Origin: Desulfovibrionaceae bacterium
GTDB lineage: Bacteria > Desulfobacterota > Desulfovibrionia > Desulfovibrionales > Desulfovibrionaceae
Assembly: GCA_029008115.1 (NCBI GenBank)
Contig: JAQXJC010000023.1
Coordinates: forward strand, 1 to 56,069
Direction: 5' to 3'
Length of the DNA: 56,069 nt
This document shows, in pieces, positions 13,841-22,462 of the stretch (position 1 is its first letter; every line of letters starts with the position of its first letter). The translations under genes and the position numbers were made by a program. The notes beneath the pieces were generated by a model. The model saw only the letters and a program-made list of their open reading frames with translations. It made no database searches and had not been told where the DNA came from.

Positions 13841-14545
13841 CTACAGGGAGCGCTCCCGCAGGGAGGAGTCCGGGCGCTGTTCCTGCGGGGGAGTGGTGAT
13901 CTGGTTCAGCCCGGGCAGACTTTCCCGCACAGTGGTGCGCTCGGAGAGCGGATCGGCTGCCGGCGCCGGGGCTGCCGGCACGGCGCTGTCCCGCACGTAC
14001 ATGGTGCAGGCCGAGCCAAAGCATTCATACATGGCGGCTGGCCTGGCCTGAAGCACGCCTCGCTCGGCCACAGGCGTGGGAATGAGCAGATACTGCTCCA
14101 GACTGCGGCCCACGCGCGGCTGGAACAGGCAGGATACCAGCCATGAGCTCCTGCCGGCGCCTTCCCAGTCCAGAATGCCGATCATGCGCACCATGATTTT
14201 CTGCGAGGCTGTTTCCAGAGTGAAGCTGCTGCGGCTGATGCTCGTGCGTGCGCGGGAGCCGGCGGCCAGCTCCCGGAAGGTGCGGGCCCGGAACATGGCG
14301 GCCTTCTCCGGCAGAAAATCCGGTGAGAGCCGGCCAAAGAGAATGCGCCCGTAGGCTTCGTCCGCCGGACCGAACAGGGCTTCCGTATAGCTGTTGGAAC
14401 GATCCACAATGCTTCTGGCCTGCATTTCCTCAGGCATGCGGCGGGCCATTTCCGTAAAGGCCGCCTGATCGACGATCTGCACCGGCCTGCCGCAGCCAGC
14501 CATCAGCAATGGCAGGGCGAGCAGGGCGCAACAGGCATAGTTCAT
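13841..14545 (-). CDS. Hypothetical lipoprotein
   Basis: A 234-residue protein with a lipoprotein signal: a hydrophobic leader ending in LLMAGC, with the lipidated cysteine at residue 18, so it is predicted to be membrane-anchored on the outer side of the cytoplasmic membrane or in the outer membrane. I do not recognise the mature domain. It has two internal cysteines (YECFGSACTMYV) and a Pro/Arg-rich C-terminus. It lies 81 bases downstream of the YcaO gene on the same strand and may be the third gene of that operon. Without a family match, any link to the YcaO protein is inference from position only. Confidence 0.8.
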   Translation of the reverse strand: MNYACCALLALPLLMAGCGRPVQIVDQAAFTEMARRMPEEMQARSIVDRSNSYTEALFGPADEAYGRILFGRLSPDFLPEKAAMFRARTFRELAAGSRARTSISRSSFTLETASQKIMVRMIGILDWEGAGRSSWLVSCLFQPRVGRSLEQYLLIPTPVAERGVLQARPAAMYECFGSACTMYVRDSAVPAAPAPAADPLSERTTVRESLPGLNQITTPPQEQRPDSSLRERSL

Positions 14546-14626
14546 GGCAGAATTCCTGCAATATGTGCCGGAGATTGTCCGGCGGCGTTTCGGGTGATGC
14601 GGTTCGCGCCGTACCCGGCGCGATGG

Positions 14627-16357
14627 TCAGGACTGGCTGCGCAGTTCCTCCAGATGCGTGCGCGCAAAGGCAAGACCGGGATCAATTTCCAGCGCGGCAG
14701 CCAGACAACGCTCCGCTTCCTCCCTCTGTCCAAGAAACTTGCGGCACAGGCCCAGATTGGCCAGGTCCATCACCGAGCCCTTGTCAACCTTCAGCACCTG
14801 CTCAAAGAAATCCGCGGCTCTGGCATAGCTGCCCAGCTTGAAGCAGGCCACGCCGCAGAGATTGCCGTATTCCTTCATATCCGGGCAGAGCCGGAAGGCC
14901 GCTTCCAGCAGGGGCAGCGCATCGGCCCAGCGTTCCCGCAATGTCAGGACATATCCGGCATAGAAGTGCGCCAGCGCGCTGGAATCCGCCTCCGGCTGCA
15001 CAGGAGCCGCTGCGAGGAAGGCCGCGTGCGCGGTGTCAAGATCGCCGGCGCGCAGGGCGAGCATCCCTCTGAAGAAGGGCAGGAAGTGCGCGTCGGGACA
15101 GCATTCCGCCAGCACGCGCAGGCCGTGTTCCGCCTCATCCGCCTCGGCTTCCTCCGCCAGCTTGCGACCGATGAACAGGCCGAGGCTCTGGTTTTTGTCC
15201 CGTTCGCGGAAGCTCAGGCCGGGGATGATGCTGTAATGGGCAGGAATGCCCAGACTGGGATTGGTGGTCTCTATGGCATAGGTCGTGAAACCCTGTTCGT
15301 GCAGGCCGTTGACAGCGGCGAGCAGCTCGTCACGAATATCCTGCCGTTCCACGCAGGGCAGGCTGCTCAGGGGAACGGTATCGCCTTCCAGCAGCCACTG
15401 AATATCCGCCAGCGCGGTAAATTTGGGCAGGCCGGAGGCTTCATAGCATGCGCCTGTGCAGAAGTCGCCGGCAAGCTGGGCCACTTCGGTGACGGCACGG
15501 ATGGCTGCCTTGGCCGGCGAGGCCGCCGTGCCCGCGGTAAAGACAATTTCGGAACGCGTGGGGAATGTGGAGGGGTCCCAAGCCACGGCCCCCACTGTGG
15601 GCACGGGCATGCCGGCGGAAAAGTCCTTCAGCACCAGCGTGATGCCCTGCGCGGCAAAGGCATCCAGCAGAGCGCGCAGCACGGGGTCATCCACGCTGCC
15701 GGGATCGATGGTGGGCGTAGTCATGCGGCGGCGATCCACCAGACAGCAGGCATGCCGCTCCACCAGTTCGCAGCAGCTCTGGAGCAGGGATTCTTCATTG
15801 GTGTTGCCCGCGGCGGTGCCGTTGAATTCGCTGAGCAGCTTAAACCAGTCCAGCGGCAGCCACGTGATTTTTCCCGTATTCAGGCAGGTGGCGGGATAGA
15901 ACTGCCAGCGCAGCAGATCCAGCAGGCGGCGCGCCTGTGCCGGAGCCATGCTGTCCTGTACGGACTTGAGAATGTCCTCCAGAGGAATGAGCGCGTCCCC
16001 GAAGCGGGCTTCCGCCTCGCTCCAGCTGGCCTCCACAAAGCCTTCATGCCGTTCCCAGAAGCTGAAGAAGGCATAGCGCTCCATGAGCTCCATGACGGCG
16101 GATGCCTGCGCCTGTTCCGGAGAGGAGCCCTTGCCCATCTGCTTGCGGGTGGGCATGATGCGCTTTGCATCTTCGCCGCAGACGCTGAGATATACGGGAA
16201 TGCCCAGCCGTCCCACGTCCACCCGGGTGGTGCGGGCCAGAATATCCAGATGGCAGGCAGTCAGCCGGGCACGCACCCGCGCCACTGTCTGCGCCGGGGG
16301 GACGGCCTTGTCCAAATCCTTGGTATATGCCTTGGGGCAGGGAGACAGCGTGATCAT
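14627..16357 (-). CDS. YcaO-domain protein with C-terminal TPR repeats
   Basis: A 576-residue protein. Residues about 50-400 form a YcaO domain (ATP-dependent backbone-amide activation): the paired ATP/Mg-binding helices read SAVMELMERYAFF and CCELVERHACC, and MPTRKQMGKGSSPEQAQASA is the N-terminal binding loop. Residues about 410-570 are tetratricopeptide repeats (LALRAGDLDTAHAAFL, VLTLRERWADALPLLEAAF, ANLGLCRKFLGQREEAERCL). YcaO enzymes make azolines or thioamides in peptides, thioglycine in methyl-CoM reductase, or assist RimO-dependent methylthiolation in E. coli. No precursor peptide, TfuA, dehydrogenase or transporter is nearby, so a RiPP pathway is not supported. Its ATG overlaps the stop of the upstream methyltransferase by four bases. 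The substrate is unknown. Confidence 0.92.
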   Translation of the reverse strand: MITLSPCPKAYTKDLDKAVPPAQTVARVRARLTACHLDILARTTRVDVGRLGIPVYLSVCGEDAKRIMPTRKQMGKGSSPEQAQASAVMELMERYAFFSFWERHEGFVEASWSEAEARFGDALIPLEDILKSVQDSMAPAQARRLLDLLRWQFYPATCLNTGKITWLPLDWFKLLSEFNGTAAGNTNEESLLQSCCELVERHACCLVDRRRMTTPTIDPGSVDDPVLRALLDAFAAQGITLVLKDFSAGMPVPTVGAVAWDPSTFPTRSEIVFTAGTAASPAKAAIRAVTEVAQLAGDFCTGACYEASGLPKFTALADIQWLLEGDTVPLSSLPCVERQDIRDELLAAVNGLHEQGFTTYAIETTNPSLGIPAHYSIIPGLSFRERDKNQSLGLFIGRKLAEEAEADEAEHGLRVLAECCPDAHFLPFFRGMLALRAGDLDTAHAAFLAAAPVQPEADSSALAHFYAGYVLTLRERWADALPLLEAAFRLCPDMKEYGNLCGVACFKLGSYARAADFFEQVLKVDKGSVMDLANLGLCRKFLGQREEAERCLAAALEIDPGLAFARTHLEELRSQS

Positions 16358-17061
16358 GAGCGCTCCAGTACGTGCAGCAGATAGAGGCGGCGCTGTTCTT
16401 CTCCCTCGGCATCCGTGGATCGCACGCCGACTTTGTATTCCTGGATGGAGAAGCTCCTGGCGGCCAGCTTGAAGAAATGCGGCTTGCGGCGTGCCCAGTC
16501 CGTACAGAACACGGCCTTGCCTCCGGCGGCAAGGTGGCGATCCAGAAATTTGAGCAGGGGGCGGTGCAAATCGTCAAGATACAGAATTTCCGAGGCGGCG
16601 ATAATATCGAAGCGCGCGTCCAGGCGCGTCGCGGCCACATCGACGTGCCGCACGTCCATGCAGGCTTCCAGTCCGTTCCTCAGCACATTGGCTTTGGCAA
16701 AGATCAGGGCATCCGGCACGATGTCGCTCACGGTAACATGAGAGAACCCGTAGCGGGCGGCAATGCAGCCGGCCACGCCGCAGCCGGCGCCGATTTCCAG
16801 CAGCGTTTTCCCTGCCGGCTCCAGTTTGCGGAGAAAGCGGCCCATCACAAAGGAGGCAGGCCAGACCTTGGCCCAGAGGGGCAGGTCCTTCAGGGGATTG
16901 CGGATGGCGCGGGTGGCGACCAGATTGTCCAGATGGCTCCGCATGTTGGTGACGCCCAGCACATGCAGAGGCGTTCCGTCCACATCCAGCGGCTCAAAGG
17001 CCACGGTAAAATGCTTGCCGGCCTGTGCCAGCAGGGATTCGAGAGTTTCCGAGACGGGCAT
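16354..17061 (-). CDS. Class I SAM-dependent methyltransferase, protein-methyltransferase-like (NNT1/METTL16-fold group)
   Basis: A 235-residue Rossmann-fold methyltransferase. The SAM-binding motif I is LLEIGAGCGVAGCIAARYG, preceded by the LPLWAKVWPASFVMGRFL block that I associate with the PF10294/NNT1-type protein methyltransferases. Motif II is VTVSDIVPDALIFAKANV, and motif IV reads IIAASEILYLDD. The start at 17061 is followed after its stop by the YcaO gene with a four-base overlap, so the two are coupled and probably act on the same substrate, perhaps methylating the product or partner of the YcaO enzyme. A second protein of the same type lies at 21761-22462 in the nikR operon. Confidence 0.9.
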   Translation of the reverse strand: MPVSETLESLLAQAGKHFTVAFEPLDVDGTPLHVLGVTNMRSHLDNLVATRAIRNPLKDLPLWAKVWPASFVMGRFLRKLEPAGKTLLEIGAGCGVAGCIAARYGFSHVTVSDIVPDALIFAKANVLRNGLEACMDVRHVDVAATRLDARFDIIAASEILYLDDLHRPLLKFLDRHLAAGGKAVFCTDWARRKPHFFKLAARSFSIQEYKVGVRSTDAEGEEQRRLYLLHVLERS

Positions 17062-21348: not shown

Positions 21349-21768
21349 TTACACCAAATCCTGTCCTGTCGTTGTCAAAGAAAAAGTGCCGTACTTTACG
21401 CCGCGGCAGGAGACGAGCTTGTTGGACAAATCGCGTATCTCCCGCGATTCTCCCTTCAGCACCAGCACTTCCAAGCAGTTGTGATGATCCAGGTGCACAT
21501 GCAGCGTGGCCACAATCATGTCGTGAAAGTCATGCTGGATGTCCATCAGTTTCTGGGCAAGATCACTCTTGTGGTGATCGTAAATCATGGTCAGCGTCCC
21601 GGCGCTGGGGCCCGTGGCTGCCTCGTTGGCCTCTTCGACCATGGCCTTGCGGATGAGGTCGCGCAGGGCTTCCGAGCGGTTTGTGTAGCCCTTGCGCTCG
21701 CACAGCGCATCGAAAGGTTCCAGCAAATCCTGATCCAGGGAGACGCCGAAGCGCGTTGTCTTACCCAT
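21349..21768 (-). CDS. nikR: Nickel-responsive regulator NikR
   Basis: A 139-residue ribbon-helix-helix regulator. The N-terminal DNA-binding strand is [15 protein letters not shown], and the C-terminal ACT-like domain holds the nickel ligands His79 (QHDFHD), His90, His92 ([10 protein letters not shown]) and Cys98, aligned to E. coli His76, His87, His89 and Cys95. It should repress nickel uptake genes in nickel excess, relevant to NiFe hydrogenases in sulfate reducers. The start lies inside the end of the upstream methyltransferase gene (8-base overlap). No nickel transporter is visible within the window. The GGAGG at 21783-21779 supports the start. Confidence 0.96.
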
Positions 21769-22462
21769 GCGTTCCTCCGTCCGTCTTTCTGCGCGTCAGC
21801 TCCCATACGTGTACAGTCACGGGAACGGGCTGGGCATACAGCGGCTCCACCGTGCGCGTGAAGACGCGCCGTCCATCCCAGCCCCGCTGGTGCAGGCCCA
21901 CGCGGAAGGCGTCGTAGACGCTGCGGCCCGGCTCGGCCACCCATGCCCGTCCGCCAGGCGCCAGCGCCGTTTCCAGAAAATGCAGCACGGGTGCGACAAA
22001 GCGCGTTTCATACATGATGTCTCCGCCCCAGAGCACCTCGATGCTGCCGGGACGCACCGCAGGGGCGCGCCAGTCCATGACTGTCCAGAGCGGCTGCGGC
22101 ACGTCGTTCAGTACCGCGTTGCGGCGGGCAAAGCGCAGTGCTTCCCGTTCGTAGTCCATGGCCAGCACGCGCGCGCCCAGCCACTGCCCTATCATGGCCG
22201 TGAGCCCGAGCCCGCAGCCCAGGTCAAGGCAGCGGCGGCCGCGGATGTCGGCCCGCCTGCGTTCCAGCCAGGAACCAAGAGCCACGCTGGAGGGCCACAG
22301 CTCCGTCCAGTAGGGAAGGCGCTCGTCCTCGAAATTCGCCGGGTCTTCCGTCATGGCATTCCACAGGGATTCGAGGTCGCTGGCGCGTTCCAGATGCCAT
22401 GACCGTCCGCAGGCGGCAACGGTGATACGTGGTGTATATTCGGCAAGCGGAGTGCAGCTCAT
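21761..22462 (-). CDS. Class I SAM-dependent methyltransferase (protein-methyltransferase-like), first gene of the nikR operon
   Basis: A 233-residue protein with [18 protein letters not shown] ahead of the SAM motif [19 protein letters not shown], motif [20 protein letters not shown], and [13 protein letters not shown] in the catalytic position. It resembles the methyltransferase at 16354-17061 in layout. The target is unknown; the family includes ribosomal-protein and lysine methyltransferases. It overlaps nikR by eight bases and is preceded by a promoter with TATATA. The start at 22462 gives a 233-residue protein with the conserved N-terminal beta strand. Confidence 0.9.

Follow-up and report, generated by a model that had tools for sequence, protein, structure and literature searches.

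McrA and the ribosomal protein uL16 are the only cellular proteins known to carry backbone thioamides (PMC13063428). The methanogen YcaO that modifies McrA (TIGR03266, PDB 6peu/6pe3) has the YcaO kinase fold and an intact ATP motif, both shared with the enzyme considered here, a YcaO protein with a C-terminal TPR domain (YcaO-TPR). It acts on a glycine of a key anaerobic-respiration protein, as YcaO-TPR would in the reading proposed below, and TfuA can be missing, as in M. jannaschii and M. kandleri. The two differ in substrate and domain of life, and YcaO-TPR reaches 115 bits against the family cut-off of 365. We know of no TPR domain or adjacent methyltransferase in the McrA YcaO family.

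Escherichia coli YcaO, which acts on Met82 of uL16 (PMC13063428), resembles YcaO-TPR in having a folded protein substrate, a TPR-like C-terminus, and neither TfuA nor RRE. However, YcaO-TPR scores 40.8 bits against the cut-off of 700 for that family, its putative substrate and its taxonomic range are different, and the E. coli enzyme has no methyltransferase partner. DVU2210 of Desulfovibrio vulgaris belongs to the same family as YcaO-TPR, with YcaO and TPR parts and a near-identical ATP motif, but it has been published solely as a molybdate-sensitivity locus, without a native function or a link to DsrC (PMC7774982). The partner methyltransferase shares its fold, SAM motif, and ExxY motif with the METTL21/CaM-KMT lysine methyltransferases, from which it differs in being bacterial, in being paired with a YcaO enzyme, and in its putative substrate, Lys78 of DsrC. 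Compared with thioamidation of McrA and uL16, the new elements would be DsrC as the substrate and the paired lysine methyltransferase.

The paired enzymes and their immediate neighbours

The window, i.e., the whole stretch of 56,069 nucleotides that was analysed, is one contig of a 1.88 Mb genome of the Desulfovibrio group (99.9% complete). The features of the locus are listed in Table 1; the four-base overlap of the methyltransferase and YcaO-TPR genes and the lipoprotein-like gene next on the same strand are both found as in the preliminary description.

Table 1. Coordinates of the genes, domains, and motifs of the locus in the window
Feature	Position	Strand	Basis
METTL21-like protein methyltransferase, 235 aa, first gene of the pair	16354..17061	-	ORF, Pfam, phmmer, AlphaFold fold
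YcaO-TPR enzyme, 576 aa, ortholog of D. vulgaris DVU2210	14627..16357	-	PF02624, orthologs, AlphaFold
Lipoprotein-like ORF, 234 aa	13841..14545	-	ORF list
ATGA, overlap of methyltransferase stop and YcaO-TPR start, 4 bp	16354..16357	-	ORF coordinates
SAM-binding motif I LEIGAGCG, methyltransferase residues 88-95	16777..16800	-	Ortholog alignment
[D/E]xxY-type post-II motif EILY, methyltransferase residues 158-161	16579..16590	-	E158 invariant in alignment
YcaO catalytic domain, residues 74-382	15212..16138	-	Pfam PF02624
YcaO ATP-binding motif AAGNTNEESLLQSCCELVER, residues 182-201	15755..15814	-	Alignment of 32 orthologs; PMC7774982
C-terminal TPR domain, about residues 406-574, putative substrate recruiter	14636..15142	-	Pfam and AlphaFold model

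The methyltransferase matches the Pfam lysine methyltransferase family Methyltransf_16 (6.5e-11; 42.7 bits, above the gathering score of 21), and METTL21A is matched at 1.3e-11 by phmmer. When its AlphaFold model (pLDDT 93) was compared with PDB folds, ranks 1–9 were all METTL21B, D, A, or C or CaM-KMT; METTL21D is the enzyme that trimethylates p97. The [D/E]xxY type of post-II motif is that of the METTL lysine methyltransferases.

Gene order was counted in the 140 genomes of the order with listed coordinates (33 genera, six families). In 112 of them, representing 29 genera, the methyltransferase is the gene immediately upstream of YcaO-TPR; it is missing from this place in genera g2, g18, g29, and g32. 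This pairing is far above chance, and the linkage of the two genes claimed earlier is thus borne out. The pair is also present in genus g10 (Nitratidesulfovibrio loci), to which D. vulgaris belongs. Of the YcaO-TPR genomes checked outside the order, about two thirds have a methyltransferase ortholog, in no case beside the YcaO gene.

YcaO-TPR is a member of the YcaO superfamily (PF02624, residues 74–382, 1.5e-63; 215.5 bits against a gathering cut-off of 25.7), followed by TPR repeats at about residues 431 to 561 (Pfam). Its Ex3Qx3ExxER ATP motif is intact, with E189, Q193, E197, E200, and R201 invariant in 32 orthologs. The apparent in-frame stops in some g32 orthologs turned out to be merely terminal stops. 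The AlphaFold model (pLDDT 92) has as its best PDB match MjYcaO, the Methanocaldococcus enzyme that thioamidates McrA. The best NCBIfam match is likewise the McrA-thioamidating TIGR03266, below its equivalog cut-off as given above, and the equivalog NF040716 of uL16-thioamidating E. coli YcaO scores far lower. The SagD azoline cyclodehydratases (TIGR03604) reach 81.8 bits against a subfamily cut-off of 219, and the C-terminus aligns as TPR, without the proline-rich tail of azoline-formers. Judging by these scores, YcaO-TPR is predicted to work like the McrA-thioamidating family without being a member of it; its placement outside the RiPP YcaOs, as initially supposed, agrees with its scoring closest to that family and above the RiPP cyclodehydratases.

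Many YcaO proteins serve RiPP pathways, and YcaO-TPR might do so with a distant precursor. This is hardly conceivable, given that conserved small ORFs are missing around the pair, that the SagD cut-off is not reached, and that full-length YcaO-TPR orthologs are near-universal in the order (144 of the 150 genomes sampled). TfuA (PF07812) was found nowhere in the genome, so that the locus is not of the YcaO–TfuA thioamitide type, and no RiPP partner adjoining YcaO-TPR was recognised in 60 neighbourhoods. The absence of RiPP partners from the locus is therefore confirmed.

The lipoprotein-like ORF has a lipoprotein-like N-terminus and no family match in Pfam or NCBIfam. It had been regarded as the third gene of the operon and as a possible target of the enzymes. 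Among the first 40 neighbourhoods it was found only in the window and in part of genus g3; in eight of 80 named loci it is located no more than 2.5 kb from the YcaO gene, mostly more than 1 kb off, and never together with dsrC. This unconserved linkage rules out both roles, and the gene is a lineage-specific neighbour.

Association of YcaO-TPR with dsrC in the order and the phylum

DsrC, a small protein central to sulfate respiration, carries sulfur as a partner of dissimilatory sulfite reductase, and its Cys93 is redox-active. When 40 neighbourhoods were compared, a 105-aa protein ending in GACKMAGLPKPTGCV, encoded directly downstream of YcaO-TPR, was recognised as DsrC. This arrangement, with both genes on the same strand and a median gap of 247 bp, is present in at least 77 of the 140 genomes of the order, in 26 of the 33 genera and all six families. 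Several genera retain dsrC beside YcaO-TPR despite changes in the other ancestral neighbours. The two genes are not adjacent in the genus of the window, nor in g3, g6, and g10; in the window genome dsrC is located on a different contig, and the lipoprotein gene fills the corresponding region here and in part of g3.

Within the order, the presence of dsrA and dsrC offers no contrast because every well-assembled genome has dsrC. The contrast was therefore sought in the wider phylum, in 238 genomes from beyond the order, with the YcaO-TPR alignment as the query. Orthologs, one of them truncated, were found in 76 genomes: 74 carry both YcaO-TPR and dsrA and two YcaO-TPR alone, while 39 carry dsrA alone and 123 neither. 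YcaO-TPR is thus absent from 123 of the 125 genomes without dsrA, and both exceptions are incomplete assemblies from families bearing dsrA. The association is strong (Fisher 8e-30; 5e-12 at the family level), although these genomes are related and not independent. Directly downstream of YcaO-TPR, dsrC was found in seven further families, and in six genomes of family f21 it lies directly upstream, on the same strand, 146–159 bp away. That dsrC adjoins YcaO-TPR in two arrangements argues against passive synteny.

Some dsrA-bearing lineages that lack YcaO-TPR possess a pair of B12-radical-SAM and TPR genes, located beside dsrA in one of them.

This distribution also bears on whether YcaO-TPR thioamidates uL16 in the manner of E. 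coli YcaO, which likewise has a TPR-like C-terminus and works without a partner protein. Such a function is highly improbable: uL16 is universal, whereas YcaO-TPR is restricted to dsr-bearing genomes; the score is far under the cut-off of the E. coli family; and the pI of YcaO-TPR, about 5.1, is less extreme than 4.4. Charge pairing of the kind seen between E. coli YcaO and uL16 was uninformative here, the pI values being 4.5–5.8 for YcaO-TPR and 5–7 for DsrC.

Residue 89 and the modified peptide of DsrC

In all YcaO-TPR-positive genomes examined, the main DsrC copy contains PSGPGKGACK, and in dsrA-positive genomes without YcaO-TPR the sequence is mostly GPAKGACK. The counts for this site come from two DsrC pattern searches in the phylum sample. 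Glycine at PGK is found in 72 genomes with YcaO-TPR and six without, alanine in none with and 34 without (6.5e-23, for related and hence not independent genomes). All 72 YcaO-TPR genomes matching either pattern are therefore of the GPG-K type. Family f44 contains both states, which switch together with YcaO-TPR. A DsrA tree built from 61 genomes shows at least five changes of residue 89. The independent contrasts run with YcaO-TPR and not one runs against it, but at four to five (p = 0.125) they are too few for significance. Three other DsrC columns separate both groups too; position 89 alone is invariant on each side. Glycine without YcaO-TPR occurs in six genomes of the phylum sample (f39, f81, f87, and G360) and in some of the order. 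We read these as recent losses of the enzyme, and DsrC-Gly is an imperfect marker of it. Lys78 of DsrC is conserved irrespective of the methyltransferase.

Published proteomics of D. vulgaris contain a native DsrC peptide, LK*EVYELFPSGPGK, obtained from three baits and assigned as 'Trimethylation+Oxidation' (PMC3125180 Table 1). A neutral loss of 59 Da was given as support for trimethylation, and according to the authors the mass accuracy was insufficient to tell trimethylation from acetylation (PMC3125180), two modifications that lie farther apart than a thioamide and an oxidation. Alignment to D. vulgaris DsrC (chain 2V4J) identifies the marked lysine as Lys78 and the covarying residue as Gly89, four residues before Cys93. 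Met, Cys, and Trp are all absent from the peptide, the covarying Gly-Lys forms its C-terminal end, and the DsrC of the window organism has exactly the same sequence here. An exchange of oxygen for sulfur adds 15.977 and an oxidation 15.995, a difference of 11 ppm on this peptide, and thioamides are liable to be misread as oxidation (PMC13063428). Instead of the −16/+14 Da of the preliminary description, the shifts to be expected on DsrC are about +16 for a thioamide and about +42 for trimethyl-lysine. The +16 could alternatively be a genuine oxidation or an artefact of a low-resolution instrument. In the literature searched, no paper connects DsrC with YcaO, and DsrC is named in none of the ten papers listed on thioamides or thioglycine.

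One activated amide can lead to several YcaO products (PMC13063428), so that YcaO-TPR might alter the DsrC backbone by other chemistry, e.g., to a ring or an amidine, with the +16 of 2011 being ordinary oxidation. We consider this improbable: the covarying peptide is shifted by +16 and not by −18 or −20 (PMC3125180), the proline-rich tail of azoline-formers is missing, and the best-scoring family is the one that thioamidates McrA.

The enzymes might instead modify DsrAB, ApsAB, or Sat, which also belong to sulfate respiration, the link to DsrC then being due only to synteny and shared ecology. The distribution of YcaO-TPR follows dsrA and dsrC alike, ApsA and ApsB are likewise trimethylated in D. 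vulgaris (PMC3125180), and sat interacts genetically with DVU2210 in molybdate resistance (PMC7774982). However, it is dsrC that recurs beside YcaO-TPR in two arrangements, in the covariation analysis, which covered DsrC, residue 89 varies with the enzyme, and the +42/+16 peptide comes from DsrC (PMC3125180). We regard this explanation as rather unlikely.

Proposed maturation of DsrC and the phenotype of DVU2210

Taken together, the gene order, the co-occurrence, the covarying residue, and the published proteomics are four lines of evidence that point with good confidence to DsrC as the substrate. That the two enzymes form a maturation module, in which YcaO-TPR thioamidates DsrC, probably at Gly89, and the methyltransferase trimethylates Lys78, is a likely reading. 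The earlier idea that a non-RiPP YcaO-TPR and a methyltransferase act on a cellular protein is strongly supported, with DsrC as the specific candidate; the lipoprotein has no part in it.

Consistent with the observed gene order, the pair would be transcribed together. The TPR domain may recruit folded DsrC, and the YcaO domain, using ATP, would replace a backbone oxygen with sulfur beside the C-terminal arm. The most likely site is Gly89 of SGPGK, which precedes Cys93 by four residues. Free sulfide would be the sulfur source, and TfuA may be unneeded because the cells make sulfide in bulk. Thioamidation of Gly89 from ATP and free sulfide seems reasonably probable to us. The METTL21-like enzyme would trimethylate Lys78, which is in the same tryptic peptide as Gly89. 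Here our confidence is evenly divided, because elsewhere the methyltransferase orthologs lie apart from the YcaO gene, and DsrC is not the only methylated protein; the methylation may come from another enzyme, ApsA and ApsB being trimethylated too.

We lean slightly towards a doubly modified DsrC (thioglycine at Gly89 and trimethyl-Lys78). Taken with the B12-radical-SAM/TPR pair that some lineages have instead of YcaO-TPR, this would make sulfite reductase, like methyl-coenzyme M reductase, a target of several modifying enzymes. The modifications may tune the DsrC arm or its encounter with redox partners; a role in the swinging arm is speculation from the position beside Cys93. If the proposal is true, DsrC is the third cellular protein with a thioamide, and the modification belongs to the core of dissimilatory sulfate reduction, which matters worldwide for the cycling of carbon and sulfur, for corrosion, and for sulfide in the gut. 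The overlooked +58-Da DsrC peptide of the 2011 proteomics would be explained, and there would be a candidate enzyme for the trimethylated lysine. DVU2210, so far known from experiments on molybdate resistance and the evolution of mutualism, would gain a native function.

In sat-deleted D. vulgaris, deletion of DVU2210 or mutation of its ATP motif leads to molybdate resistance, and the S195R substitution in this motif is equivalent to deletion (PMC7774982). These phenotypes agree with a published proposal that DVU2210 is a molybdate- or sulfate-activating enzyme running a futile ATP cycle. This is very improbable as the function of YcaO-TPR, since expression of DVU2210 in E. coli conferred no molybdate sensitivity, and the proposal leaves the dsrC linkage and the Gly/Ala covariation unexplained. 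Modification of DsrC by YcaO-TPR may itself have a bearing on the molybdate sensitivity. The deletion strain still respires sulfate, so the DsrC mark would not be essential; since McrA-thioglycine mutants likewise still make methane, a non-essential tuning role is to be expected. Mutations in DVU2210 emerge in sulfate-free mutualistic cultures (PMC7774982).

Sequence covariation in DsrC and a gene next to dsrC

Genomes with YcaO-TPR have Ser, Thr or Ala at position 70 of DsrC (numbering of the DsrC from the window organism); almost every genome whose DsrC carries Ala89 has Cys there. Position 70 is a second covarying site besides residue 89.

In the ancestral block around YcaO-TPR, dsrC is often immediately followed by a MoaE-like gene (molybdopterin synthase, identified by eye), which is possibly relevant to the molybdate phenotype.

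B12-binding radical SAM enzyme and TPR protein

In sulfate reducers lacking YcaO-TPR, a TPR protein is encoded after the gene of a B12-binding radical SAM enzyme; at locus L167, dsrA and dsrC adjoin this pair. The TPR protein carries SPASM-like cysteines, and its C-terminal TPRs are similar to those of YcaO-TPR (up to 112 bits with the YcaO-TPR alignment as query). The two proteins may be another Dsr-modifying pair.

Other genes and reduced genomes

Family f23 contains a divergent DsrC paralog (...FPTTSERAICKIAGLPKPTGCI) close to YcaO-TPR or a TPR-less YcaO paralog; at L205, a gene of the B12-radical-SAM family (BLAST grouping) lies between it and the YcaO gene. In some families, members of a second, TPR-less YcaO family (about 480–520 aa) are likewise encoded close to dsrC or to genes resembling it. 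The window organism's genome also encodes a second, unrelated YcaO (617 aa), which has no TPR.

The second METTL-like methyltransferase of the window, with folE2 and NikR-like genes close by, is another candidate for methylating sulfate-reduction proteins.

The reduced 1.6 Mb genome of Candidatus Desulfovibrio kirbyi (L046/L095) retained YcaO-TPR and lost the methyltransferase; YcaO-TPR was lost in genus g12 and genome G126 (1.4–1.7 Mb genomes).

Locations of the genes discussed (L, loci; G, genomes; C, contigs)
Feature	Location	Strand	Remark
B12-binding radical SAM enzyme and TPR protein pair	L167:1469-4470; also L169, L170, L172, L173, L174, L175		
MoaE-like gene	L066, L069, L070, L073 and other loci		about 0.4–0.6 kb past dsrC start
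Divergent DsrC paralog, family f23	L205 (G166), L180 (G266)		
TPR-less YcaO family near dsrC/dsrC-like genes	L181 (G247), G266:C164		
Second YcaO of the window genome	G000:C44 (L002:1204-3057)	-	purM-like gene alongside
Second METTL-like methyltransferase	window 21761-22462	-	DIMY motif
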